From the NCBI GenBank assembly GCA_030605125.1, contig JAUWBD010000019.1, forward strand, positions 1-40,649: 40,649 nucleotides of DNA, written 5' to 3'. Under the pieces are notes generated by a model that worked only from the letters and a program-made list of their open reading frames with translations, searched no databases and had not been told where the DNA came from. The position numbers and the translations under genes were made by a program. Source of the stretch: Verrucomicrobiota bacterium (GTDB lineage: Bacteria; Verrucomicrobiota; Verrucomicrobiia; Opitutales; Opitutaceae). The number at the start of each line of letters is the position of its first letter. Position 1 is the stretch's first letter. Shown here one piece after another: positions 3,195 through 12,718 of the stretch.

Positions 3195-3644
3195 TCACGC
3201 GGCGCTCGTTTTCCTGCGCCTCGCCCCCGCGCGCTCCCCGCGCTGAAACACCGCCAGCGTCGTCTCGCGCAGATAACGCGTCCAGTCCTCGTCGATCCGC
3301 ACCAGCTCGTTATGCATCGGACAAGGCTCACCGTTGCCGCACCAATTCGGCCCGAAGGGACACATCACGCGCGCGTCCTGCCGCTCAAACTCCTCCACGA
3401 TGTCGAGCAGCGAGATCTCGCCCGGCGGCCGCTTCAGCCAATAGCCGCCGCCCGGCCCGCGCGTGCCGTCCACCAGCCCGAGCGACGACACGATCGTGAG
3501 CACCTTCGCCACCACCGGCTGCGGCAGCTCGCGCCGCTCCGCGATCTCGTGCGAGCTGAGCTTCGTCTTGCCGCCGTCATATACCTCCGCGAGCAGGCTC
3601 ATCGCGGAAACGGCGGTCTGGGCGGTTTTGCCAAAGCGAATCAT
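3195..3644 (-). CDS. Rrf2-family transcription regulator, possible NsrR/IscR-like sensor
   Basis: 149 residues. The N-terminal winged helix-turn-helix shows the Rrf2 pattern (KTAQTAVSAMSLLAE, LSSHEIAERRELPQPVVAKVL, GLVDGTRGPGGGYWL). Three cysteines, C95, C102 and C108, sit in the position where IscR and NsrR bind an Fe-S cluster (CPFGPNWCGNGEPC, spacing C-x6-C-x5-C). The spacing differs slightly from the classical C-x5-C-x5-C, so the cluster is inferred. It is the last gene of the minus-strand operon, 7 bases after the NrfD-type gene. This suggests it regulates that operon and perhaps the divergent nap operon in response to NO or Fe-S status. A candidate operator lies at 6532-6555. Confidence 0.85.
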   Translation of the reverse strand: MIRFGKTAQTAVSAMSLLAEVYDGGKTKLSSHEIAERRELPQPVVAKVLTIVSSLGLVDGTRGPGGGYWLKRPPGEISLLDIVEEFERQDARVMCPFGPNWCGNGEPCPMHNELVRIDEDWTRYLRETTLAVFQRGERAGARRRKTSAA

Positions 3645-3651
3645 GGGATCT

Positions 3652-4938
3652 TCAGGTGGACTTGGCGTCAGCCCTAGGCGCCGCCTCCACCGTGTGCGAG
3701 GCCTTTTCCCTCTCCGGATGCGGCTCGCGGAGAATCGGCAGCGCGATCTTCAGCGCCACCGTCAAAATCAACAACCCCCAGGCCCAGATGCCCGCCGACA
3801 CCTGCCACTCCACCAGGCTCGGGAAATACTCCACGATCTCATGCAGCGACGAGGGAATGAAGGCCGGCACGATCAAGCCCATGCCCTTCTCGATCCAGAT
3901 ACCCGTGAAGGCCAGCGCGCAGGCCACCGTCAGCCACACCGGATGCGCCACCACGCCCGGCCGTAGAAACATCACGGCCGACACCACGCCCATGCCGACC
4001 GCCGTCCAGATCCACGGCACGAGCGCGTTCGCGCCGTTGAGGCCGAAGAACAGATAGTGCCCCGAGGCCGTGCGCGCCCCGCCGCCGTAGAGTTCCGTGA
4101 ACAACTCCGAGACCACCATCAGCAGATTGATGAGCAGCGTCACGCGGACCACGTTGACCAGGATCTCCAGCGGCCGCCGCGCCACCGGCACGCCTCCCAG
4201 CCGCCGCAGCACGAAGAGCACCACGATGATGAAGGCCGGCCCCGCGATGAAGGCCGTCACCAAGAAACGCGGCGCGAGCAACGCCGTGTTCCAGAGCGGA
4301 CGCCCCCCGAGGCCCGAATACAGAAACGCCGTCACCGTGTGGATCGAGATCGCCCAAAAAATCGAGAGATACACGAAGGGCACATACCAGCGCGGGTTGG
4401 GCCGCTCGCCGAGGAAACGCTTGTAGAGCAGGTAGCCGCAGATGTGCAGGTTGAGCGCGAGGTAGCCGTTCAGCACGATCACGTCCCAGGTCAGCATCGA
4501 GACCGGAAAGTTGAACCGCCCCACGAAGGGAAACATGTGCCAAAAGCGCTCCGGCCGCCCCATGTCCACCACGACGAAACAAATGCACATCACGATCGCC
4601 GCCACCGCGAGCAGTTCGCCCACGATCGTCAGGTCGTGCATCTCGTGGTCGTGGTAAAGGTAGGCCGGGATCACCATCATCACGCCGCCCGCCGCGAGGC
4701 CGACCATGAAGGTGAAGTTCGCGATGTAGAGCCCCCACGAGACGTGGTCGTTCATGCCCGTCACCGCCAACCCGTCGCGCATCTGCACCGCCCACGCGTG
4801 CAGCCCCACCAGCGCCAGCGCCGTGAGCAGGATCATCCACGCGTAGAACCATGCCGAACCCTCGGTCGCATCGCGCGCCGCCTGCCAAAGAAAGCGTCGA
4901 TAGCTCGTCGCCTGTTTTCTGAGAGCGGCCTTATTCAT
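3652..4938 (-). CDS. NrfD/PsrC-type integral membrane quinol-interacting subunit
   Basis: 428 residues with about ten hydrophobic helices. NrfD-family features include FYAWMILLTALALVGLHAW near the start, HVSWGLYIANFTFMVGLAAG, VVDMGRPERFWHM, SMLTWDVIVLNGYL and YSGLGGRPLWNTALLAPRFL. These proteins sit in the inner membrane, exchange electrons with quinones and pass them to a partner Fe-S subunit. The start overlaps the end of the Fe-S gene by 8 bases (ATGAATAA arrangement), indicating translational coupling. With the Fe-S protein and the tetraheme cytochrome it forms a complete quinone-to-periplasm electron route. Whether it serves Nap, as context suggests, or another acceptor is not shown by sequence. 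Confidence 0.92.
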   Translation of the reverse strand: MNKAALRKQATSYRRFLWQAARDATEGSAWFYAWMILLTALALVGLHAWAVQMRDGLAVTGMNDHVSWGLYIANFTFMVGLAAGGVMMVIPAYLYHDHEMHDLTIVGELLAVAAIVMCICFVVVDMGRPERFWHMFPFVGRFNFPVSMLTWDVIVLNGYLALNLHICGYLLYKRFLGERPNPRWYVPFVYLSIFWAISIHTVTAFLYSGLGGRPLWNTALLAPRFLVTAFIAGPAFIIVVLFVLRRLGGVPVARRPLEILVNVVRVTLLINLLMVVSELFTELYGGGARTASGHYLFFGLNGANALVPWIWTAVGMGVVSAVMFLRPGVVAHPVWLTVACALAFTGIWIEKGMGLIVPAFIPSSLHEIVEYFPSLVEWQVSAGIWAWGLLILTVALKIALPILREPHPEREKASHTVEAAPRADAKST

Positions 4939-5860
4939 CGAAGAAATAGAAGAAACTGGGCTGCGTGCCGACGTCCTCCTTCAGCACGAAGACGCGTTTG
5001 TTTTTCAGCACCCAGCGGATCTCGGACTCCGGATCGAGCAGGTTGCCAAACACCCGCGCCCCCGTCGGGCAGGCCTCCAGACAGGCGGGCAGCTTGCCCT
5101 GACGCGTGCGATGCAGGCAGAAGGTGCACTTCTCCATCACGCCCTGCGGACGGATCCGGTTGGAGAGATAGCCCTGGTCGGGATTGATCTCCGCCGCCGG
5201 GATCTCCGGTTTTTTCCAATTAAAACGCCGCGCGTGGTAAGGGCAGGCCGCCTCGCAATAGCGGCAGCCGATGCACCAGTTGTAATCCACCACCACGATG
5301 CCGTCCGTCTCCTTCCAGGTCGCCTCGACCGGGCACACCGACACGCAGGGCGGCTTGTCGCACTGCTGGCACTGCACCGGCAGGTAAAACTTTTCCGGAT
5401 TCGGCACCGGGCCGGAGTAGTTCACCCGCCCCTTCGCCAGGTCCATCGAGCCCTTCTGCATCTCAAGCACGCGGATGTAGCTGTTGCCCGAGGGACGGTC
5501 GTGGTTGTTCTCCACATGGCAGGCCTGCGCGCAGCGACGGCAGCCCACGCAGATCGAAAGGTTCAGCGCGTAGCCGAACTTCACGCCCGGCTGCGGCCGA
5601 TAGTCGCCGATGTGCACCTCCACGCCGGTCTCCTCCTTAGTCCGCTGCTCCAGCCGCGCGATCACCATCGCGAGGTCCACGGGCGAAAGCTCCTTGTAGT
5701 GCTTCTGCAAATACTCGTCCACCGACATGTCCGCCGCCCACTCGGTCAACGGGGCGATCGCCTGCGCGAAGGCCGCCGCGCCGAGCGTGGCGCCCAGCGC
5801 CTTGAGCGCGGTGCGCCGGCTCATGCCCTCTTCTGTGGATGTTTGCGGGGCCTCATTCAT
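4931..5860 (-). CDS. Tat-exported four-cluster [4Fe-4S] ferredoxin subunit (NrfC/DsrO/PhsB type)
   Basis: 309 residues. A twin-arginine signal (MSRRTALKALGATLGAAAFA, from residue 13) indicates export of a folded protein. Sixteen cysteines form four binding sets: CVGCRRCAQAC; CQQCDKPPCVSVCP; CIGCRYCEAACP; and CTFC paired with CLEACP. This is the classic beta-subunit layout of DMSO-reductase-type and NrfCD-type complexes, which shuttles electrons between the NrfD membrane subunit and a redox partner. The start overlaps the cytochrome stop by 8 bases (ATGAATGA) and the stop overlaps the NrfD-type start by 8 bases, so the three genes are tightly coupled. No molybdoenzyme catalytic subunit is in this operon; the nearest is NapA across the divergent promoter region. 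Confidence 0.93.
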   Translation of the reverse strand: MNEAPQTSTEEGMSRRTALKALGATLGAAAFAQAIAPLTEWAADMSVDEYLQKHYKELSPVDLAMVIARLEQRTKEETGVEVHIGDYRPQPGVKFGYALNLSICVGCRRCAQACHVENNHDRPSGNSYIRVLEMQKGSMDLAKGRVNYSGPVPNPEKFYLPVQCQQCDKPPCVSVCPVEATWKETDGIVVVDYNWCIGCRYCEAACPYHARRFNWKKPEIPAAEINPDQGYLSNRIRPQGVMEKCTFCLHRTRQGKLPACLEACPTGARVFGNLLDPESEIRWVLKNKRVFVLKEDVGTQPSFFYFFDE

Positions 5861-6494
5861 GACGATGGTGGCGTTGCTCGCGTTCGGCTTGCTGGCGTGC
5901 GGCCGCGTCGCGCGGCGCGAAAACCGGGATCAAGGCCGGGTAGGCCGGCGCATGCGGGTCGTGGCAATCGATGCACGCGTTGCGCACCCGCCCGCCGCGG
6001 CTCTTGTCCCAATAGCCCGTCATGCCGCCATGCGAGCCGTTCAGATAGTCGCGCGTCTGCGGGCCGTGGCACTGCGCACAGAGCTGCTGCGAATCCCGAA
6101 AGGCCAGCTTGCGCCCGTCCGCCAGCCGCAACGAATCGTAGTCGTCCGCATGGTGGCAGCTCAGGCAGCTCATGCCCGCATGCGCGAAGGCGAGCCCCTG
6201 GTGAAAAGTCTTCGGCAGCGCTCCGCCCAGTCCATTCGCCCGATCCGGCTCCCGCGTGCTGTGGCAGGTCATGCAAGAGACGCCCGCCTCCACTCCATGA
6301 TAATCCACCAGCCCCGCCGAGACGCGCGGCGCCGTTCGGGCGATCACGGCCGCATCGCCCTCGGCGTCGGCACGGACCTCCCTTGCGCCGCCCCGCCCCT
6401 CCAGCGACGCGCCCCCTCCGATCATCCACTGCCCGGCCAACGCGACCGAAACCAGCGCGACACCGATGAGAATTGGGGCGGCTCGAAGCATCAT
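5853..6494 (-). CDS. membrane-anchored tetraheme cytochrome c
   Basis: 213 residues from the ATG at 6494, where GGCGAG a few bases upstream could serve as a ribosome site; an ATG at 6491 is an alternative. A hydrophobic N-terminus (residues 3-23) is a signal anchor. Four CxxCH heme sites follow: CMTCH (C74), CLSCH (C110), CAQCH (C139) and CIDCH (C174). Extra histidines between them (HQGLAFAHAGM, HHADD, GSHGGMTGYW) could be distal ligands. The open frame continues upstream to 6629, but that would run through the divergent promoter region and the napD start, so the shorter start was chosen. As first gene of the operon it is the likely periplasmic electron carrier between the Fe-S/NrfD pair and an acceptor, plausibly the NapB-like cytochrome (inference). 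Confidence 0.88.
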   Translation of the reverse strand: MMLRAAPILIGVALVSVALAGQWMIGGGASLEGRGGAREVRADAEGDAAVIARTAPRVSAGLVDYHGVEAGVSCMTCHSTREPDRANGLGGALPKTFHQGLAFAHAGMSCLSCHHADDYDSLRLADGRKLAFRDSQQLCAQCHGPQTRDYLNGSHGGMTGYWDKSRGGRVRNACIDCHDPHAPAYPALIPVFAPRDAAARQQAEREQRHHRHE

Positions 6495-6531
6495 CTCGCC
6501 AACGAACAAAACCACTCGCCGCGCCAAAATC

Positions 6532-6555
6532 AAGATAACTTTGTCTTTTATTCTT
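6532..6555. promoter_or_regulatory. candidate NsrR/Rrf2-type operator between divergent operons
   Basis: The 94-bp divergent gap (6495-6588) holds an AT-rich core in otherwise GC-rich DNA. The left half AAGATAACTTT (6532-6542) and the reverse complement of 6544-6555 (AAGAATAAAAGA) form an imperfect inverted repeat. It resembles the known NsrR pattern of two 11-bp AAGATGCATTT-like halves with a 1-bp centre, here one base longer. CAAGA (6531) and TCTTG (6556) close the arms. Clear -35/-10 hexamers could not be assigned on either strand. An adjacent gene encodes a three-cysteine Rrf2 protein. Confidence 0.45.
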
Positions 6556-6588
6556 GTTATACCCTCGCCCGGACGCCACAGTGCCTGC

Positions 6589-6846
6589 ATGGAAACGCCC
6601 GAGCCCGCCCTCAGCTCGTTGATCATCACCCTCGCCGAGGATCCCGCGCTTCGCGCCTCCGCCCTCGCCAGGCTCTCCGCCCATCCCGGCCTGCGCCTCG
6701 GCGAACTCGGCGGCTCCTGGCTCCCCGCCGTGCTCGACTCCGACGATCCCTACGGCGCCTTCCGCCAACTCGAGGCCATCCCCGGCGTCACCCTCGTCGA
6801 GGTGGTCTTCGTCGAACTCCCCTCCACCGCCCCCAACCCCGCCTAG
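6589..6846 (+). CDS. napD: NapD-like chaperone for periplasmic nitrate reductase
   Basis: 85 residues from the ATG at 6589; longer in-frame starts would enter the promoter core. NapD proteins are small ferredoxin-fold cytoplasmic chaperones that bind the NapA Tat signal and hold back export until cofactor loading. Visible family pattern: SSLIITLAEDP near residue 9 (equivalent to the ISSLVV strand of NapD), a middle HPGLRLGELGGSWLPAVLDS and a closing EAIPGVTLVEVVFVEL, matching the usual (I/L)xxIPGVxxxxLVY end. It is the first gene of the plus-strand operon, 60 bp before napA, which is the expected arrangement. Confidence 0.82.
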   Translation: METPEPALSSLIITLAEDPALRASALARLSAHPGLRLGELGGSWLPAVLDSDDPYGAFRQLEAIPGVTLVEVVFVELPSTAPNPA

Positions 6847-6906: not shown

Positions 6907-9339
6907 ATGCAACGCCGCGACTTCCTCCGCTCCACCGCGCTCGCCGCCGCCACCGCCGTGGTCGCCCGCCGCCTCGGCGCCGCCCTTCCCGAGGGCCTCC
7001 CCGCCTACGCCACCTCGCCCAGCGCCACCGTCACCGCCGACGGCGTCCGCTGGGACAAAGCCCCCTGCCGCTTCTGCGGCACCGGCTGCCACGTCCGCGT
7101 GGGCGTGAAGGACGGCCGCGTCGTCGCCATCCAGGGCGACCCCGAAGCCGAGGTAAACAAGGGCCTGCTCTGCATGAAGGGCTACCACGTCGGCGGCATC
7201 CTCTACGGCAAGGACCGCCTCACCACCCCGCAGCTCCGCCGCAACGGCCGCCTCGAGCCCATCACGTGGGAAGAGGCCATCGAGATCATGGCCCGGCGCG
7301 TCATGAAAAACCCCGCCGGCTTCGCCATCTACGGCAGCGGCCAGTGGACCATCCCCGAGGGCTACGCCGCGCAGAAGCTCATGAAGGCCGGCCTGGCCAA
7401 CAACCACATCGACCCCAACGCCCGCCTCTGCATGGCCTCCGCCGTCACCGCCTACCTCTCGGTCTATGGCGTGGACGAGCCCGCCGGCTGCTACGACGAC
7501 CTCGACGTCGCCGACGTCGTCATCCTCTGGGGCAACAACCCCGCCGAGATGCACCCCGTCCTCTGGTCGCGTATCATCGACCGCCGCACCCGCGGCGAAA
7601 AGGTGATGATCATCGACCTCGGCACGCGCCGCACCCGCTCCACCGCCTACGCCGACCACTACCTCGAGTTTCGCCCCCAGAGCGACCTCGCCATCGCCAA
7701 CGGCATCGCCCACCTCCTCCTCGCCAACGGCACCTGGGACCGCGACTTCGTCTCGAAGCATTGTAATTTCCGCACGGATACGTCGCCCGTCACCCTCAAC
7801 GGCCAGGCCTCCACCTTCGAGGCCTACCGCGAATCCCTCGCCCCCTACACGCCCGAGCGCGTCGCCGAGATCTCCGGCGTCCCCACCGAGAAGATCCGCT
7901 TCCTCGGCGAGCTCTTCGGCAATCCCAAGCTGCGCATCACCAGCCTCTGGTGCATGGGCATGAACCAGCATACGCGCGGCACCGCCGTGAACCGCCTCGT
8001 CCACGGCATCCACCTCCTCTCCGGCCACTGGGGCCGCCCCGGCGACGCGCCCACCTCGCTCACCGGCCAGCCCTCCGCCTGCGGCACCGCCCGCGAGGTC
8101 GGCACCCTCTGCCACGCCCTCCCCGGCGGTCTCCTCGTCGCCAACGCCGAGCACCGCGCCGAGTGCGAGGAGCTCTGGAACCTCCCCGCCGGCCGCATCA
8201 ACCCCAAGCCCGGCTACCACACCATGCTTCTCTGGGAGAAGTTTTGCACGCCCACCGACAAAGGCGGCGACATCCACACCGTCTTCGTCCAAGTCACCAA
8301 CCCCGGCCAGACCCTCCCCGACCTCCACCGCACCTTCAACGGCAAGGCCGGCCTCGAGGACAAGTTCCTCATCGTCTCCGACGTCTATCCCACCGCCACC
8401 ACCGCGCTCGCCGACCTCGTCCTCCCCGCCGCCATGTGGGTCGAGAAAAACGGCATCTACGGCAACTCTGAGCGCCGCACCCAGCAGTGGTTCAAGCAGG
8501 TCGAGCCCCCCGGCCAGGCCCGCCCCGACGCCTGGATCACCCTCGCCCTCGCCCGCCGCCTCTTCGAGTTCGGCCACCCCGGCATGCGCGACCGCGACGG
8601 CAAGTTCCTCTTCCAGTTCCGCGACGCCGCCGGCCGCGAGGTCCCCGCCTGGGATTTCGCCCACTACTACGACATCAACACCGACCGCGCCCTCTACGAG
8701 GAGTATCGCCGCTTCACCTACCACAAGCACAAGCACGTCGCGCCCTACGACGAGCTCGTCAAATCCCGCGGCCTCCGCTGGCCCGTCGTCGAGCAGGCCG
8801 ACGGCTCCTACCAGGAGACGCGTTTCCGCTTCATGGAATTCAGCGACCCCTTCGTGAAGAAAGGCGCCGGCATCCAGTTCTACCACTCCGTCACCAAGGA
8901 CAACCGCGCCCTCATTTGGTTCTGCCCCTACGAGCCCGCCACCGAGGAGCCCGACAAGGACTACCCCTTCTGGCTCTGCACCGGGCGCGTCATCGAGCAC
9001 TGGCACTCCGGCACCATGACCATGCGCATCCCGCAGCTGCGCGGCTCCATGCCCAACGCCTACGTCGAGCTCCACCCCGAAGACGCGCGCGCCCTCGGCC
9101 TCGCCAACGGCGACATGGCCACGCTCGAGACCCGCCGCGGCCGCCTCGACCTGCCCGTCTGGCTCGACGGACGCGGCCAGCCCCCGCGCGGCTCCGTCTT
9201 CGTGCCCTTCTTCGACCAGAATCTTCTCATCAACAACATCACGCTCGGCGACGTCTGCCCGATCTCCAAGGAGCCCGACTACAAGAAGTGCGCCGTCCGC
9301 GTCCTGCGCCGCACCTCCGCCACCGTCGTCGCGACATGA
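6907..9339 (+). CDS. napA: periplasmic nitrate reductase catalytic subunit NapA
   Basis: 810 residues, close to the usual length of about 830. A Tat signal starts at the first residues (QRRDFLRSTALAAATAVVA). The N-terminal [4Fe-4S] ligands are C54, C57, C61 (CRFCGTGCHV) and C89, followed by the conserved lysine in CMKG. The molybdenum-ligand cysteine is C175 (NARLCMASAVTAY). Bis-MGD binding motifs follow: WGNNPAEMHPVLW, GMNQHTRGTAVNRLVHGIHL, ADLVLPAAMWVEKNG and the C-terminal CTGRVIEHWHSGTMTMR with EPDYKKCAV. The enzyme reduces nitrate to nitrite in the periplasm. The stop overlaps the cytochrome start (ATGA), so it is co-translated with its electron donor. NapC, NapG and NapH are not found beside it. 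Confidence 0.95.
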   Translation: MQRRDFLRSTALAAATAVVARRLGAALPEGLPAYATSPSATVTADGVRWDKAPCRFCGTGCHVRVGVKDGRVVAIQGDPEAEVNKGLLCMKGYHVGGILYGKDRLTTPQLRRNGRLEPITWEEAIEIMARRVMKNPAGFAIYGSGQWTIPEGYAAQKLMKAGLANNHIDPNARLCMASAVTAYLSVYGVDEPAGCYDDLDVADVVILWGNNPAEMHPVLWSRIIDRRTRGEKVMIIDLGTRRTRSTAYADHYLEFRPQSDLAIANGIAHLLLANGTWDRDFVSKHCNFRTDTSPVTLNGQASTFEAYRESLAPYTPERVAEISGVPTEKIRFLGELFGNPKLRITSLWCMGMNQHTRGTAVNRLVHGIHLLSGHWGRPGDAPTSLTGQPSACGTAREVGTLCHALPGGLLVANAEHRAECEELWNLPAGRINPKPGYHTMLLWEKFCTPTDKGGDIHTVFVQVTNPGQTLPDLHRTFNGKAGLEDKFLIVSDVYPTATTALADLVLPAAMWVEKNGIYGNSERRTQQWFKQVEPPGQARPDAWITLALARRLFEFGHPGMRDRDGKFLFQFRDAAGREVPAWDFAHYYDINTDRALYEEYRRFTYHKHKHVAPYDELVKSRGLRWPVVEQADGSYQETRFRFMEFSDPFVKKGAGIQFYHSVTKDNRALIWFCPYEPATEEPDKDYPFWLCTGRVIEHWHSGTMTMRIPQLRGSMPNAYVELHPEDARALGLANGDMATLETRRGRLDLPVWLDGRGQPPRGSVFVPFFDQNLLINNITLGDVCPISKEPDYKKCAVRVLRRTSATVVAT

Positions 9340-10118
9340 AACTCGTCGCCCGCAAGCTCGCCGTCCTCGCCGCGCTCGCCGCCTTCACCGCCGGCCTGAG
9401 CGGCTACTTCATGGCCCGCCTCCAAGTCGCGCGCTCCGCCGAGGCGCTCCGCGCATCTCAAATTTCAGATCTCAAATTTGAAATCCCCGCCGCGTCGCCC
9501 GACGCGGCGCACGCCCCCCTCGCCCCCGTTTACGCCGCGCTCCGCTCGCGCGAGCACCAGCCCAACCACGGCTGGCGCAGCTCCCTCGCCACCCTCCCGC
9601 CCGCACCCGCCTTCACGCCCGACACGCCGCCGCTATCCCCGGCCGAGCTCGCCCAGCTCCTCGGCACCCGCGAGGCCCGCCGCGCCTACGCCGGCGCCCC
9701 GCCGACCGTCCCGCACCCCATCGACCAGGTGCACTCCGCTTCCTGCCTCGCCTGCCACGGCCAGCCCACCCGCATCGGCACGCGCGACGTGCCGCAGATG
9801 AGCCACGCGCCCTACAGCCAGTGCATCCAGTGCCACGCGCCCTCCGTCGGCCCCGGCGGCGGCGCCTTCGCGCCTGTCTCCGTGACCAACAGCTTCGCGG
9901 GCCTCCCGCCCGCCGCCCGTGGCACCCGCGCCCACCCCGACGCGCCGCCCACCATCCCGCACGGCACCCACCTGCGCCAAAACTGCCTCTCCTGCCACGG
10001 CCCCGGCGGCTCCAGCGCCATCAAAACCACCCACCCCCACCAAACGAGCTGCCTCCAGTGTCACGCCACCGACGCCGCCCGCGAAACCCACCCGCCCGTG
10101 CTGCGCACCACATCATAA
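9336..10118 (+). CDS. napB: tetraheme NapB-like cytochrome c with duplicated diheme domain
   Basis: 260 residues; the ATG overlaps the napA stop by 4 bases. An N-terminal hydrophobic segment (about 7-27) is a signal or anchor. Ordinary NapB has two hemes after an APPxIPH motif. Here that unit occurs twice. APPTVPHP (121-128) is followed by CLACH (C137), CIQCH (C163) and a VTNSF end. APPTIPHG (203-210) is followed by CLSCH (C217) and CLQCH (C239). The protein should donate electrons to NapA. A short AT-rich palindromic repeat is inserted in frame at residues about 42-50 (QISDLKFEI), in the linker between anchor and heme domain. The assignment to NapB rests on motif and position; the four-heme form is unusual. 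Confidence 0.85.
   Translation: MKLVARKLAVLAALAAFTAGLSGYFMARLQVARSAEALRASQISDLKFEIPAASPDAAHAPLAPVYAALRSREHQPNHGWRSSLATLPPAPAFTPDTPPLSPAELAQLLGTREARRAYAGAPPTVPHPIDQVHSASCLACHGQPTRIGTRDVPQMSHAPYSQCIQCHAPSVGPGGGAFAPVSVTNSFAGLPPAARGTRAHPDAPPTIPHGTHLRQNCLSCHGPGGSSAIKTTHPHQTSCLQCHATDAARETHPPVLRTTS
9459..9480. repeat. AT-rich palindromic repeat inside the NapB-like gene
   Basis: A 22-bp near-perfect palindrome centred on AGATCT (CAAATTT arms at 9459-9465 and 9473-9479), surrounded by further TCTCAAATTT and GAAATC units (9456-9485). It is far more AT-rich than its surroundings and encodes QISDLKFEI in frame. It looks like an inserted short repeat tolerated in a linker. Confidence 0.6.
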
Positions 10119-10155: not shown

Positions 10156-10599
10156 ATGTCCGCCCCAGCTCTCACCCGCCGCGACTTCCTCACCGCCTTC
10201 CGCCGCCCGGCTCCGCCCGCCCCTCCCATGTCCGCCCCTCCCGCCACCTCCTCCTCCGAGCCGCTCCGCCTGCCTCCGCTCCAGCAGACCGTCCTCGACG
10301 TCGCCACCACCGAGGCCCTTTTCCGCGACCTCGCCGCCTGCACCCGCGTCCAGGCCGTGTTGCCCAAATACGCCCGTAACCAGCATACCGGCCCCGAATC
10401 CCTCACCCTCGAACAAGCCCGCGTGCGCCTCGCCGCCGGCCTCCTCCTCGGCGTGCAAATCCGCTACGCCTACGACGGCGACACCTGGTGCGACACCCTC
10501 CTGCGCCGCCCCGCCGGCCTCACCCTCGTGCGTATCCGTGAAACGGATATCCACGCCTCCGTCGCCCACGACCACGCGCCGGCCGCCGCCGCCGCCTGA
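10156..10599 (+). CDS. uncharacterised Nap-operon protein with twin-arginine N-terminus
   Basis: 147 residues; not recognised. The N-terminus has LTRRDFLTAF, a twin-arginine-like motif, but no hydrophobic stretch follows: the next residues are RRPAPPAPPMSAPP. Export by Tat is therefore unlikely, and the motif may instead be bound by a Tat chaperone such as NapD. After a proline/serine linker comes a folded-looking domain (about 40-130) with LPPLQQTVLDVATTEALFRD, ARVRLAAGLLLGVQIRYAYD and GDTWCDTLLRRP. The end is His/Ala-rich. Only one cysteine is present, so it is not an Fe-S protein. Its place between the cytochrome and the multipass membrane gene suggests a role in nitrate or nitrogen-oxide handling. 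Confidence 0.72.
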   Translation: MSAPALTRRDFLTAFRRPAPPAPPMSAPPATSSSEPLRLPPLQQTVLDVATTEALFRDLAACTRVQAVLPKYARNQHTGPESLTLEQARVRLAAGLLLGVQIRYAYDGDTWCDTLLRRPAGLTLVRIRETDIHASVAHDHAPAAAAA

Positions 10600-10614: not shown

Positions 10615-11814
10615 GTGGATCTCGCCGCGCCCACCCTCGCCTTTCGCGCCGCGCTCGTCGCCCTCTTCGGCGCCGCGCTGCTCGGCGTCGGCCTGCGCGC
10701 CTTCCCCTGGCTCTCCGCCGAAGGCTTCGATTACCGCAATATCCTGCACGCCCACTCGCACCTCGCCCTCCTCGGCTGGGTGGGCAACGCATTCCTCGCC
10801 CTCGCCGCCGCGCTCTTTCTCGACGCCTCCGCCCGCCCCGCCCTCGCCCGAATTTTCATCATCCTCCAAATTGCCCTCCTCGGCATGGTCCCGAGCTTCG
10901 CGCTCTCCGGCTACTCCGCCGTCAGCATCGCCCTCTCTACCCTCCACCTCGGCGGCACCGTCTGGCTCGCCTTGCTCCTCTGGCGCGCGCCTCGCGCCCA
11001 CCCGATCGCCCGCGCCTTCCTCCGCGCCGGCATCGTCTGGCTCTTCGCCTGCGGACTCGGCCCGCTCGCCCTCGCCCCCCTCGCCGCCCTCGGCCTTCGT
11101 GGCGAGCCGCCCTACCAGCTCGCGCTCTACTTCTACCTCCACGGCCTCGCCAACGGCTGGTTCACCTTCTTCCTCCTCGCCGCCGGCCTCCAACACCTCG
11201 CCCCGCGCGCCGACGCCGCCTTCCCCTCCGAGGCCCGCCGCGCGCTCGCCTGGCTCTTGACCGGCTCCGTCCTCACCTACGCCCAATCCACGCTCTGGCT
11301 CGATCCGCCCGCCCCGGTCCGCTTCGTCGCCGCGCTCGGCGGCCTCGCCCAGCTCGTCGGCGCCTTTCTCCTCGCCCGCGCCGCGCTCCGCTCGCGTCCC
11401 TTCTTCGTCACCACCCGCTGGATACGCCTCCTTCTCGTCGTCGCCACCGGCGCCTGGGCGCTCAAGCTACTCCTGCAACTCCTCGCCGCCCTGCCCGTCC
11501 TCGCGCCGCTGGCGAACCACCCCTTCGTCATCATCGCCTTCCTCCACCTTTTCTTTCTCGGCTCCGTCACGCCCGCGCTCTTCGCGGCCGGCTTCGCGCA
11601 AGGCTGGTGCCGCCTCGGTCTCGCCTCCACGGGCGGCGGCACGCTCTTCCTCGGCGGTATTCTTGCCAGCGAGCTGCTTCTCGTCGCCGTCGCCCTCGGC
11701 CGCGCCCCGACCGCGCTCCCTCTCTGGCTGCTCCTCTCCACCCTTCCGCTCCTCCTCGGAGCGAGCGCCCTGCTCTCCTCCTCCGCGCTCCGCCCGCGGC
11801 TCGTTTCCTCATGA
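10615..11814 (+). CDS. multipass His-rich membrane protein, heme-copper-oxidase subunit I-like or NnrS-like
   Basis: 399 residues, very hydrophobic, about 11-12 membrane helices. The only sensible start is GTG at 10615, 15 bases after the previous stop. Histidines inside helices fit metal or heme ligands: H45, H47 and H49 in ILHAHSHLALLGWVGNAFLA, one in YLHGLANGWFTFFLL, and two in HPFVIIAFLHLFFLG. HAHSHLALLGWV resembles helices of cbb3/NorB-type subunit I and NnrS-like proteins, but the full catalytic ligand set was not confirmed. A role in nitric oxide tolerance or heme/copper handling fits the operon and is inferred. Its stop overlaps the CopD-like start (ATGA). Confidence 0.65.
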   Translation: MDLAAPTLAFRAALVALFGAALLGVGLRAFPWLSAEGFDYRNILHAHSHLALLGWVGNAFLALAAALFLDASARPALARIFIILQIALLGMVPSFALSGYSAVSIALSTLHLGGTVWLALLLWRAPRAHPIARAFLRAGIVWLFACGLGPLALAPLAALGLRGEPPYQLALYFYLHGLANGWFTFFLLAAGLQHLAPRADAAFPSEARRALAWLLTGSVLTYAQSTLWLDPPAPVRFVAALGGLAQLVGAFLLARAALRSRPFFVTTRWIRLLLVVATGAWALKLLLQLLAALPVLAPLANHPFVIIAFLHLFFLGSVTPALFAAGFAQGWCRLGLASTGGGTLFLGGILASELLLVAVALGRAPTALPLWLLLSTLPLLLGASALLSSSALRPRLVSS

Positions 11815-12260
11815 TCTTTTGGCTCCTCTTTCTCCACCTTCTCGGCGCCGCCATCTGGACCGGCGGGCATCTCGTGCTCGCCCTCGGCGTGCTGCCGCGC
11901 GCGCTGCGCCGCCGCGAGCCCGGCCTCATCCAAGCCTTTGAGGAGCGCTACGAACCCATCGGCATCGCCGCGCTCGTCGCGCAGGTGCTCACCGGCTTCG
12001 AACTCACCCGCCGCTATTTCCCCGGATTCCGGGGTCTCTTCGACCTCGACAGCCCTCTCGCCGTCGCCGCGCTCGCGAAGATCATCCTCCTGATCCTGAC
12101 CGTGAGCCTGGCCCTCGACGCCCGCCTGCGGATCATCCCGAAGCTCGGCCGTGACAACCTTGGCGCCCTCGCCTGGCACATCATCCCGGTGACGATCCTT
12201 TCCGTCGCCTTCGTCTATGTCGGCCTCCGCTTCCGTTTCGGCGGCCTCCCCCTCCCCTGA
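11811..12260 (+). CDS. small CopD-like membrane protein
   Basis: 149 residues with four predicted helices. LFLHLLGAAIWTGGHLVLAL near the start, with histidines H9 and H20, is typical of the CopD copper-resistance domain. A later segment KIILLILTVSLALDARLRI and a histidine in LAWHIIPVTIL continue the pattern. CopD domains are linked to copper uptake or to heme-binding membrane proteins. It starts within the stop codon of the preceding membrane gene, so the two are co-translated and perhaps form one complex. Another four-helix heme-binding membrane family remains possible. Confidence 0.68.
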   Translation: MIFWLLFLHLLGAAIWTGGHLVLALGVLPRALRRREPGLIQAFEERYEPIGIAALVAQVLTGFELTRRYFPGFRGLFDLDSPLAVAALAKIILLILTVSLALDARLRIIPKLGRDNLGALAWHIIPVTILSVAFVYVGLRFRFGGLPLP

Positions 12261-12272
12261 CCCACCTACAAT

Positions 12273-12292
12273 TGTAACCACCGGTGGTTACA
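12273..12292. promoter_or_regulatory. perfect 20-bp palindrome, candidate operator of the cupin gene
   Basis: TGTAACCACCGGTGGTTACA is a perfect dyad 13 bases after the CopD-like stop and 90 bases before the cupin ATG. It lies in a locally AT-richer stretch. The size fits a dimeric helix-turn-helix regulator (GntR, TetR or MarR type); the factor is unknown. A second weaker dyad with TGTCACC and GGTGCCA arms lies at 12340-12358. Confidence 0.55.
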
Positions 12293-12382
12293 TTACCCAG
12301 CCACACAACGCGCCACGCGACCCCGCCACGCCACCTAAATGTCACCCGATTGGTGCCACTGTCCCCACGCCCCCCGCTGCCC

Positions 12383-12718
12383 ATGGCCACCTCTGTCTTC
12401 CATCCCGAAACCGCCGAGCCGCTCACGCTCGCCTCCCTCGCCACGCCCAGCGCCGCCGGCATCACCAGCCGCACGCTGCTCAAGACCAAAGGAGGCAAGT
12501 CCGTGCTCTTCGCCTTCGACGCCGGTCAGGAGCTCACCGAGCACACCAACCCCAACCACGCCCTGATCCAGGTCCTCTCCGGCACGCTCCAGCTCACGCT
12601 CGACGGCCGCCCCGAGACGCTCACGCCCGGCCAACTCCTGCACATGCCGCCGCAGCTACCGCACGCCGTCCGCGCCGAGGAACCCGCCACCTTCCTGCTC
12701 ACCCTCCTGAGCCCCTGA
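12383..12718 (+). CDS. cupin-domain protein
   Basis: 111 residues. A single cupin beta-barrel is visible: GKSVLFAFDAGQELTEHTNP carries motif 1 (G-x5-Hx, with E and H as candidate metal ligands), ALIQVLSGTLQLTLDGRPETL the middle strands, and LTPGQLLHMPPQLPHAVRAEE motif 2 with its histidine. The function is not predictable from fold alone; small cupins of this kind often lie beside nitrogen-oxide respiration genes. The ATG at 12383 was preferred because the longer open frame runs into the palindromic leader. It begins after the 20-bp dyad and may form its own unit with the DUF2249 gene 49 bases downstream. Confidence 0.82.
   Translation: MATSVFHPETAEPLTLASLATPSAAGITSRTLLKTKGGKSVLFAFDAGQELTEHTNPNHALIQVLSGTLQLTLDGRPETLTPGQLLHMPPQLPHAVRAEEPATFLLTLLSP

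Follow-up and report, generated by a model that had tools for sequence, protein, structure and literature searches.

A four-heme NapB-like cytochrome with a doubled heme unit, encoded beside napA and an NrfD-type membrane module in Verrucomicrobiota

The window, that is, the whole stretch of DNA analysed here, comprises 40,649 nucleotides of a Verrucomicrobiota genome (contig JAUWBD010000019.1). On its forward strand, a napD-like gene (6589–6846) is recognized by its position and by its similarity to the frames found upstream of napA in relatives. The frame has no Pfam match; among eight related napD-like frames, PF03927 is over the cut-off in two (L037 and L043), below it in three and absent in three. 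The next gene, napA (6907–9339), encodes the catalytic Mo subunit, of 810 aa, which scores 891 bits with PRK13532 (cut-off 904), 867 bits with TIGR01706 (cut-off 930.55) and 753 bits against the NapA of C. necator. Its frame overlaps by 4 bases with the gene at 9336–10118, a single open frame whose translation of 260 aa is a tetraheme NapB-like cytochrome, here called NapB4. The small frame downstream of it (10156–10596) has no family match.

On the reverse strand, a divergent gene (5853–6494; frame open to 6629, likely start at 6494) encodes another tetraheme cytochrome, with four CxxCH motifs, which recurs beside NapB4. It is accompanied by genes for a DsrO/NrfC-like Fe-S protein with 16 Cys (4931–5860; DsrO model 185 bits, cut-off 200), an NrfD/DsrP-like membrane protein, presumed to be a quinol oxidase (3652–4938; DsrP model 414 bits, cut-off 350; PF03916 NrfD 124 bits), and an Rrf2-type regulator (3195–3644; TIGR00738 over the cut-off). 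The last possibly regulates the cluster; an Rrf2-type gene also lies near the NrfD gene in loci L033, L035 and L036. A pattern scan of positions 6441–6620 gave no FNR- or CRP-like sites.

Whole NapB4 passes the curated cut-off of the NapB family PF03892 (34.1 vs 25.1 bits), and this family matches all 11 aligned NapB4 members at E 0.1. The four CxxCH motifs start at C137, C163, C217 and C239, exactly where the first-pass annotation had placed them. The two APPTxPH motifs that it described are also present, with PPTxPH starting at residues 122 and 204, but they span 121–127 and 203–209, and the ranges given earlier (121–128 and 203–210) were one residue too long. The motifs fall into two units. 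Unit 1 (9678–9839; residues 115–168) would carry hemes 1 and 2, and unit 2 (9927–10067; residues 198–244) hemes 3 and 4; each is composed of PPxxPH, CxxCH and H-x5-CxxCH. The linker between them (9840–9926; residues 169–197) carries an N-x-F motif similar to that in the tail of NapB. A hydrophobic helix at the N-terminus (9354–9425; residues 7–30), conserved as RKLAVVA...SGYFMG in Opitutae-type relatives, is probably an uncleaved membrane anchor. In structure predictions, the mean pLDDT was 40.3 for whole NapB4 plus one relative and 45.6 for unit 1, the remaining units serving as alignment rows, so that the models speak neither for nor against the duplication; the N-terminus was the sole confidently predicted segment, with pLDDT of 77 and 80 for residues 1–20 and 67 for residues 21–30.

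When the two halves of NapB4 were scanned separately, NapB was the best Pfam family for the first (23.1 bits) and for the second (21.1 bits), and each half alone narrowly missed the PF03892 cut-off. Families of the c3/c7 type also match the second half, with 18.2 bits and lower, and heme motifs are short and common; the second heme pair could then be another multiheme domain, c3/c7-like, fused to NapB, the units being alike merely in their heme motifs. The ranking of the families, with NapB first for this half, goes against such a fusion, as do the profile comparisons. In hhalign, unit 1 scores 117 against unit 2, compared with 30–36 when the NapB4 units are set against unrelated heme pairs from the tetraheme cytochrome encoded nearby, and 24–43 for all control comparisons. 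Shuffled versions of unit 2 never reach the observed score: none of 200 column shuffles did, the maximum being 51.6 in the 100 of them that kept only CxxCH and 82.0 in the 100 that kept CxxCH, PPxxPH and the distal His. The NapB4 units are also closer to each other than to two-heme NapB (77 and 73); with the flanks included, two-heme NapB is closer to unit 1 (94.6) than to unit 2 (80.1).

The spacing of the distal His points the same way. The H-x5-CxxCH arrangement is found in both units of all 16 tetraheme proteins, and unit 2 has PPxxPH in the same 16; PPxxPH was a selection criterion for this set and the H-to-C spacing was not. Among six two-heme NapB, the spacing is H-x18 in five and H-x20 in one. 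In unit trees built on 72 columns, the 32 units of the tetraheme proteins are split from the two-heme units with branch support of 100/97, and unit 2 appears as one group with weak support (72/24). For three solved NapB chains the depositors give the name diheme, and four of the six two-heme comparison genes are annotated as NapB; the heme count of these six is no independent test, since the frames were chosen for exactly one PPxxPH and two CxxCH. The names and annotations agree with the first-pass statement that known NapB has one unit and two hemes. The main proposal of the first-pass annotation, a tetraheme NapB-like cytochrome made from a duplicated diheme unit, is supported by the half-scans, profile scores, shuffles, motif spacing and unit tree, while an unrelated origin of the second heme pair is largely refuted and seems highly improbable. 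These sequence comparisons show the duplication: NapB4 derives from NapB, whose entire heme unit (PPxIPH with its distal His, CxxCH, distal His, CxxCH) was doubled in frame long ago.

The duplicated form is common to 15 complete relatives, one of them encoded on a Flammeovirga plasmid. A frame was classed as tetraheme if it had two or more PPxxPH-like motifs and four CxxCH, no more and no fewer; one with exactly one such motif and exactly two CxxCH was classed as two-heme. All frames with two or more CxxCH were listed, so a two-heme relative would have shown; the selection rule lost no listed relative except the truncated L004 (G028), in which a contig edge lies inside the protein and leaves unit 1 only. 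This locus is excluded from the 16 proteins, and its neighbours (L034) are included in the linkage count. One scan of genome contigs gave one locus. In a sample of the phylum, a NapA match (E <= 1e-110, at most two candidates scored per genome) was found in 7 of 387 genomes, and NapB4 lies beside napA in all seven. Outside the phylum, a plasmid collection searched with the tetraheme proteins gave one record, that of Flammeovirga. Judging from these relatives, the duplication is old and shared, not peculiar to the source genome.

Several matches were rejected as NapB4 relatives: PF03892 matches in three of nine genomes (G366, G249 and G329), of which L011 lies opposite a 665-aa sensor-kinase-like frame and L012 and L015 contain no frame with two CxxCH or PPxxPH; L005, with five CxxCH and E 5.6e-4; and the profile matches L025–L029, which are multiheme proteins whose heme-bearing frames are without PPxxPH.

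The tetraheme cytochrome gene is accompanied by genes for an Fe-S protein of the DsrO/NrfC type and a membrane protein resembling DsrP/NrfD in 15 of the 15 testable related NapB4 loci, which do not represent 15 independent events, because the loci share ancestry; L031 and L032 (G009) end too early to be counted. The order of this module relative to the nap genes differs among loci, being divergent or co-directional. The suggestion that NapB4 accepts electrons from the divergent tetraheme cytochrome gains from this linkage as far as the genes go; the transfer itself we infer. The source genome (G000) has no NapC match and no NapH above the cut-off, and neither napC nor napGH was seen in the fetched NapB4 clusters, where frames were labelled by matches to a reference set. 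A NapC/NirT-family protein is encoded elsewhere in 8 of the 13 carrier genomes, and so NapC could still be the donor there.

NapC has one hydrophobic helix and four hemes. NapB4 presents the same combination in a source genome with no NapC match, as would be expected of a NapB-NapC hybrid that is itself the quinol dehydrogenase, drawing its electrons directly from the membrane. Nevertheless, the NapC family PF03264 does not match NapB4 at E 0.01 and matches a single one of the 11 aligned members (E 0.038), and the NrfD module adjoining NapB4 in 15 of 15 loci makes such a role unnecessary; we regard it as quite unlikely. It is also improbable, to a slightly lesser degree, that the additional heme pair turns NapB4 into a hub or electron store that serves another acceptor as well, for instance a multiheme enzyme that reduces nitrite. 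In G474, a cytochrome with eight CxxCH lies between napD and nrfD (hydrazine dehydrogenase model 60.8 bits, cut-off 900), but such a gene was noted in one of 15 clusters only, among genes labelled by reference matches.

The module could instead serve another enzyme, of nitrite or sulfur metabolism, and be a mere neighbour of nap. The NrfD-like protein of the window passes a model for DsrP of sulfate reduction, as do those of L030, L036 and L038, and a similar Thermosulfurimonas locus near nap was tentatively assigned to nitrite or sulfur compounds in the part of PMC5276818 available. This reading appears unlikely given the linkage to nap in all 15 loci in differing gene orders, and no other catalytic subunit recurs in the clusters among genes matching the reference set. 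The linked NrfD-type module is most likely the electron source of NapB4, and it would replace NapC or NapGH.

On the side of NapA, the equivalent of Tyr58 is kept in 15 of 16 proteins linked to NapB4, with Leu at this position in G173; D. desulfuricans NapA, an enzyme that lacks NapB, has Ser. Of the residues named as critical for the NapA-NapB heterodimer of C. sphaeroides, E47 is kept in only 7 of 16 linked NapA and S772 in only 1 of 16. The NapA tree was built without E. coli, and three of the NapA in it that are linked to two-heme NapB are partial. Docking on NapA most likely falls to unit 1, since this unit keeps the surroundings of NapB, with an arm before PPxIPH and an N-x-F tail after the second heme; nine of the 16 tetraheme proteins have this N-x-F in the linker, and all six two-heme NapB have it in the tail. 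The docking site would be near the Tyr58-equivalent tyrosine, and unit 2, the added part, is most likely the site of electron entry.

We propose that NapB4, with its duplicated NapB unit, is fed by the linked NrfBCD-like module and reduces NapA, a reading that we consider probable. Electrons would pass from quinol to the NrfD/DsrP-like protein, the Fe-S protein, the tetraheme cytochrome, unit 2, unit 1, NapA and finally nitrate; the docking, the order of carriers, the direction and the membrane anchoring are what we infer. That it constitutes a separate Nap type, in which NapB has four hemes and a quinol oxidase of the NrfD type stands in for NapC or NapGH, perhaps with energy conserved at quinol oxidation, is a more speculative and rather doubtful extension.

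In mostly uncultured bacteria, a small carrier that feeds NapA has been doubled from two to four hemes, and its gene adjoins an unusual membrane module, the probable supplier of electrons. As this arrangement accounts for all seven NapA matches in the 387 sampled genomes, nitrate reduction in the phylum probably runs on wiring other than that of the textbook. It offers a testable route for feeding NapA without NapC or NapGH. Annotation can hide the arrangement: in the one annotated record, that of Flammeovirga, NapB4 goes under the name "cytochrome c3 family protein", and the NrfD of the same cluster is labelled as the DsrP of sulfate reduction. The phrase "tetraheme NapB" was not found in the literature searched. 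Nitrate respiration linked to NapC is not known to be electrogenic. The NrfD family has been proposed as ion-translocating in the part of the NrfD review available (PMC8076601), so that, if this is true, nitrate respiration by NapB4-linked Nap could be electrogenic.

Like NapB (PF03892; C. necator 3ml1/3o5a, C. sphaeroides 1ogy, H. influenzae 1jni), NapB4 has the series PPxIPH-CxxCH-His-CxxCH and adjoins napA; it may form a complex with NapA and transfer electrons to it. It differs in having two units and four hemes, in the distal-His loop, which is H-x5-C in both units and H-x18/20-C in two-heme NapB, and in probably keeping an uncleaved anchor. NapM, the tetraheme cytochrome of napCMADGH clusters, is likewise a four-heme carrier linked to NapA, in clusters without NapB and with NapGH as far as described in the accessible parts of PMC5317091 and PMC5276818; these descriptions set NapB4, with its two NapB units, apart from NapM. 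In the portion available of a 2026 review (PMC13223375), the nap operon types are napEDABC, napDAGHB, napCMADGH and napAGHBFLD, and none of these four has an NrfD-like quinol oxidase. The window has napA in common with them, together with genes that resemble napD and napB, and departs from them in its NrfD module; napC and napGH were not seen in the fetched NapB4 clusters. The module itself resembles NrfBCD and DsrJOP, with a multiheme cytochrome, an Fe-S protein with Cys for four clusters and an NrfD-like membrane protein. In its main text, the review of NrfD (PMC8076601) uses neither "nitrate reductase" nor "Nap". According to the sections of the sources at hand, NrfB has five hemes (PMC12285233) and DsrJ three (PMC8076601); in contrast, the module described here is linked to a nitrate reductase and its cytochrome is tetraheme, with four CxxCH.

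NapB4, the tetraheme NapB-like cytochrome, is encoded by a single open frame (9336-10118, + strand; 260 residues in translation), and its start is overlapped by four bases (ATGA) by the stop of napA (6907-9339, +). CxxCH sites begin at residues 137, 163, 217 and 239 and PPTxPH motifs at residues 122 and 204, so the translation agrees with the first-pass annotation, which had claimed four heme sites (C137, C163, C217, C239) and two APPTxPH motifs. In NapB, each heme is ligated by a distal His. The whole protein passes the Pfam NapB model (34.1 bits; cut-off 25.1) and none of the NCBIfam models; its N-terminal helix suggests that it may stay membrane-anchored.

The duplication of the diheme NapB domain, also claimed in that annotation, is borne out by half-scans, profile comparisons, shuffles, a common loop and the unit tree. 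Scanned alone, the first 171 and the last 89 residues both have Pfam NapB as top family (23.1 and 21.1 bits, little below the cut-off), the runner-up for the second half being Cytochrome_C7 (18.2 bits). Profiles of unit 1 (residues 115-168, hemes 1 and 2) and unit 2 (198-244, hemes 3 and 4), built from 16 proteins, align with an hhalign score of 117; against six two-heme NapB the units score 77 and 73, respectively, and in the control against the heme pairs of the adjoining tetraheme cytochrome either scores 30-36. Part of the unit-unit similarity is owed to selection, because the segments were cut around PPxxPH; the two-heme NapB segments, cut likewise, nonetheless score below it. When the unit 2 columns were permuted (100 shuffles per scheme), none reached 117, whether CxxCH, PPxxPH and the distal His were kept (mean 63.7, maximum 82.0) or CxxCH alone (mean 39.7, maximum 51.6). 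The second heme follows an H-x5-CxxCH spacing in both units of all 16 proteins, against H-x18 in five two-heme NapB and H-x20 in the sixth; this shortened loop is common to both units and distinguishes them from two-heme NapB.

In the unit tree (72 columns), one branch (support 100/97) separates the 32 units from those of two-heme NapB; within the 32, the first units group together, as do the second units, both weakly (84/83 and 72/24). The simplest history suggested by these sequences is a single duplication predating the divergence of the NapB4 relatives. When the flanks are counted in, the score against two-heme NapB is higher for unit 1 (94.6) than for unit 2 (80.1). The N-x-F of the two-heme NapB tail (6/6) recurs in 9/16 proteins within the linker that follows unit 1, where three more have SDF and four a Trp; none of the 16 has it after unit 2. 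Unit 1 thus probably occupies the NapA-facing place, unit 2 being the added part.

Relatives were gathered from same-genus and same-family genomes, an Opitutaceae MAG, phylum and class searches, and a Bacteroidota plasmid (Flammeovirga kamogawensis, NZ_CP076130). Five of 57 same-genus or same-family genomes matched, the window's own included, and one match, a five-heme protein, was dropped. The MAG has one NapB4 locus, with NapA 86% identical to that of the window, which suggests that the window's genome is Opitutaceae-like. In the class search 11/286 genomes matched, eight being NapB4 carriers; G317, G371 and G425, with solely other multiheme proteins, were set aside. The Pfam NapB search of 387 phylum genomes matched nine, six tetraheme and three dropped as false, and found no two-heme NapB; it missed the NapB4 of G331, recovered by profile. 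NapA matched in seven of these 387 genomes, and NapB4, with its doubled motif and four CxxCH, adjoins napA in all seven. Genome bin G009 holds two different NapB4 genes (L002 and L006, contigs C338 and C13; 70% and 63% identical to that of the window); either this genome has two nap loci or the bin is mixed.

The window NapA is closest to NapA of known structure (C. necator, 753 bits) and scores below the cut-offs of both NapA models. According to the available text of a Nap review (PMC13223375), the C. sphaeroides heterodimer depends critically on E47 and S772, and Tyr58, adjoining heme II, is conserved in heterodimeric Nap. Among NapB4-linked NapA, Tyr58 is found in 15/16 (Leu in G173), E47 in 7/16 and S772 in 1/16; the residue corresponding to Tyr58 in D. 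desulfuricans NapA is Ser. A 100/100 branch separates NapB4-linked NapA from five two-heme-linked NapA, three of them partial. These results are compatible with, but no proof of, NapB4 contacting NapA close to Tyr58, with changed contacts at the sides.

In all 15 loci with enough contig, which are related by descent (the window, L007, L030, L033-L042, L043 with L068, and L044; NapB4 is cut at the contig end in L034 and NrfD at the locus end in L007), napA and NapB4 cluster with genes for a tetraheme cytochrome (window 5853-6494, -), a DsrO/NrfC-like Fe-S protein (4931-5860, -) and an NrfD/DsrP-like membrane protein (3652-4938, -). The gene set, motifs and linkage of this nap-NrfD cluster are direct observations. 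Orientation is divergent in the window, L007, L033-L036, L041 and L042, and single-direction in L030, L037-L040, L043 and L044. The cytochrome divergent from nap matches PF03264 (NapC/NirT) at 20.7 bits, below the cut-off of 24.1. NrfD beside nap passes the curated DsrP model in 4/4 tested (window, L030, L036, L038), and automatic annotation will therefore name it a sulfate-reduction subunit.

Other genes accompany the clusters. A 147-residue frame without Pfam match (10156-10599, +; starting MSAPALTRRDFL) follows NapB4, as do similar frames in several relatives; in L035 and L036 a ferredoxin-type protein occupies this place. An Rrf2-type regulator (3195-3644, -) adjoins the NrfD gene, with counterparts near NrfD in L033, L035 and L036, and is possibly a nitrogen-oxide or Fe-S sensor for the cluster. 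Between napD and nrfD of L043 (genome G474), an eight-CxxCH cytochrome (11021-12628, -) weakly matches hydrazine dehydrogenase (60.8 bits; cut-off 900) and may be a nitrite-reducing partner.

Comparison of the NapB4-cluster frames with the reference set turned up no NapC or NapH relatives. NapG was matched weakly by ferredoxin-type proteins of L035 and L036 and once more in L040, where the match overlaps the NapB4 frame. The window's genome (95.7% complete) has no PF03264 match, and for NapH a 22.3-bit match alone (cut-off 213). A NapC/NirT-family protein occurs elsewhere in 8/13 carrier genomes, and NapH above cut-off in 0/13. Most likely, the NrfD-like protein would oxidise quinol and pass electrons to the Fe-S protein, from which they would reach the tetraheme cytochrome, NapB4 unit 2, unit 1, and then the NapA Fe-S centre, Mo and nitrate; we infer every transfer step from the NrfBCD and NapAB families.

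No description of a tetraheme NapB appeared in the titles or abstract openings of the literature searched, which comprised neither subscription papers nor preprints. The terms 'nitrate reductase' and 'Nap' are both absent from the main text of an NrfD review (PMC8076601). As described in the available text for each, Caldithrix (PMC5317091) and Thermosulfurimonas (PMC5276818) lack NapB and use a separate tetraheme NapM. Near nap, the latter also has a locus with multiheme, NrfD and Fe-S genes, tentatively assigned to nitrite or sulfur compounds (PMC5276818); the proximity of Nap and NrfD genes therefore has some precedent in the literature. NapB4 clusters carry NrfD, whereas the four operon types set out in the available text of the Nap review (PMC13223375) do not.
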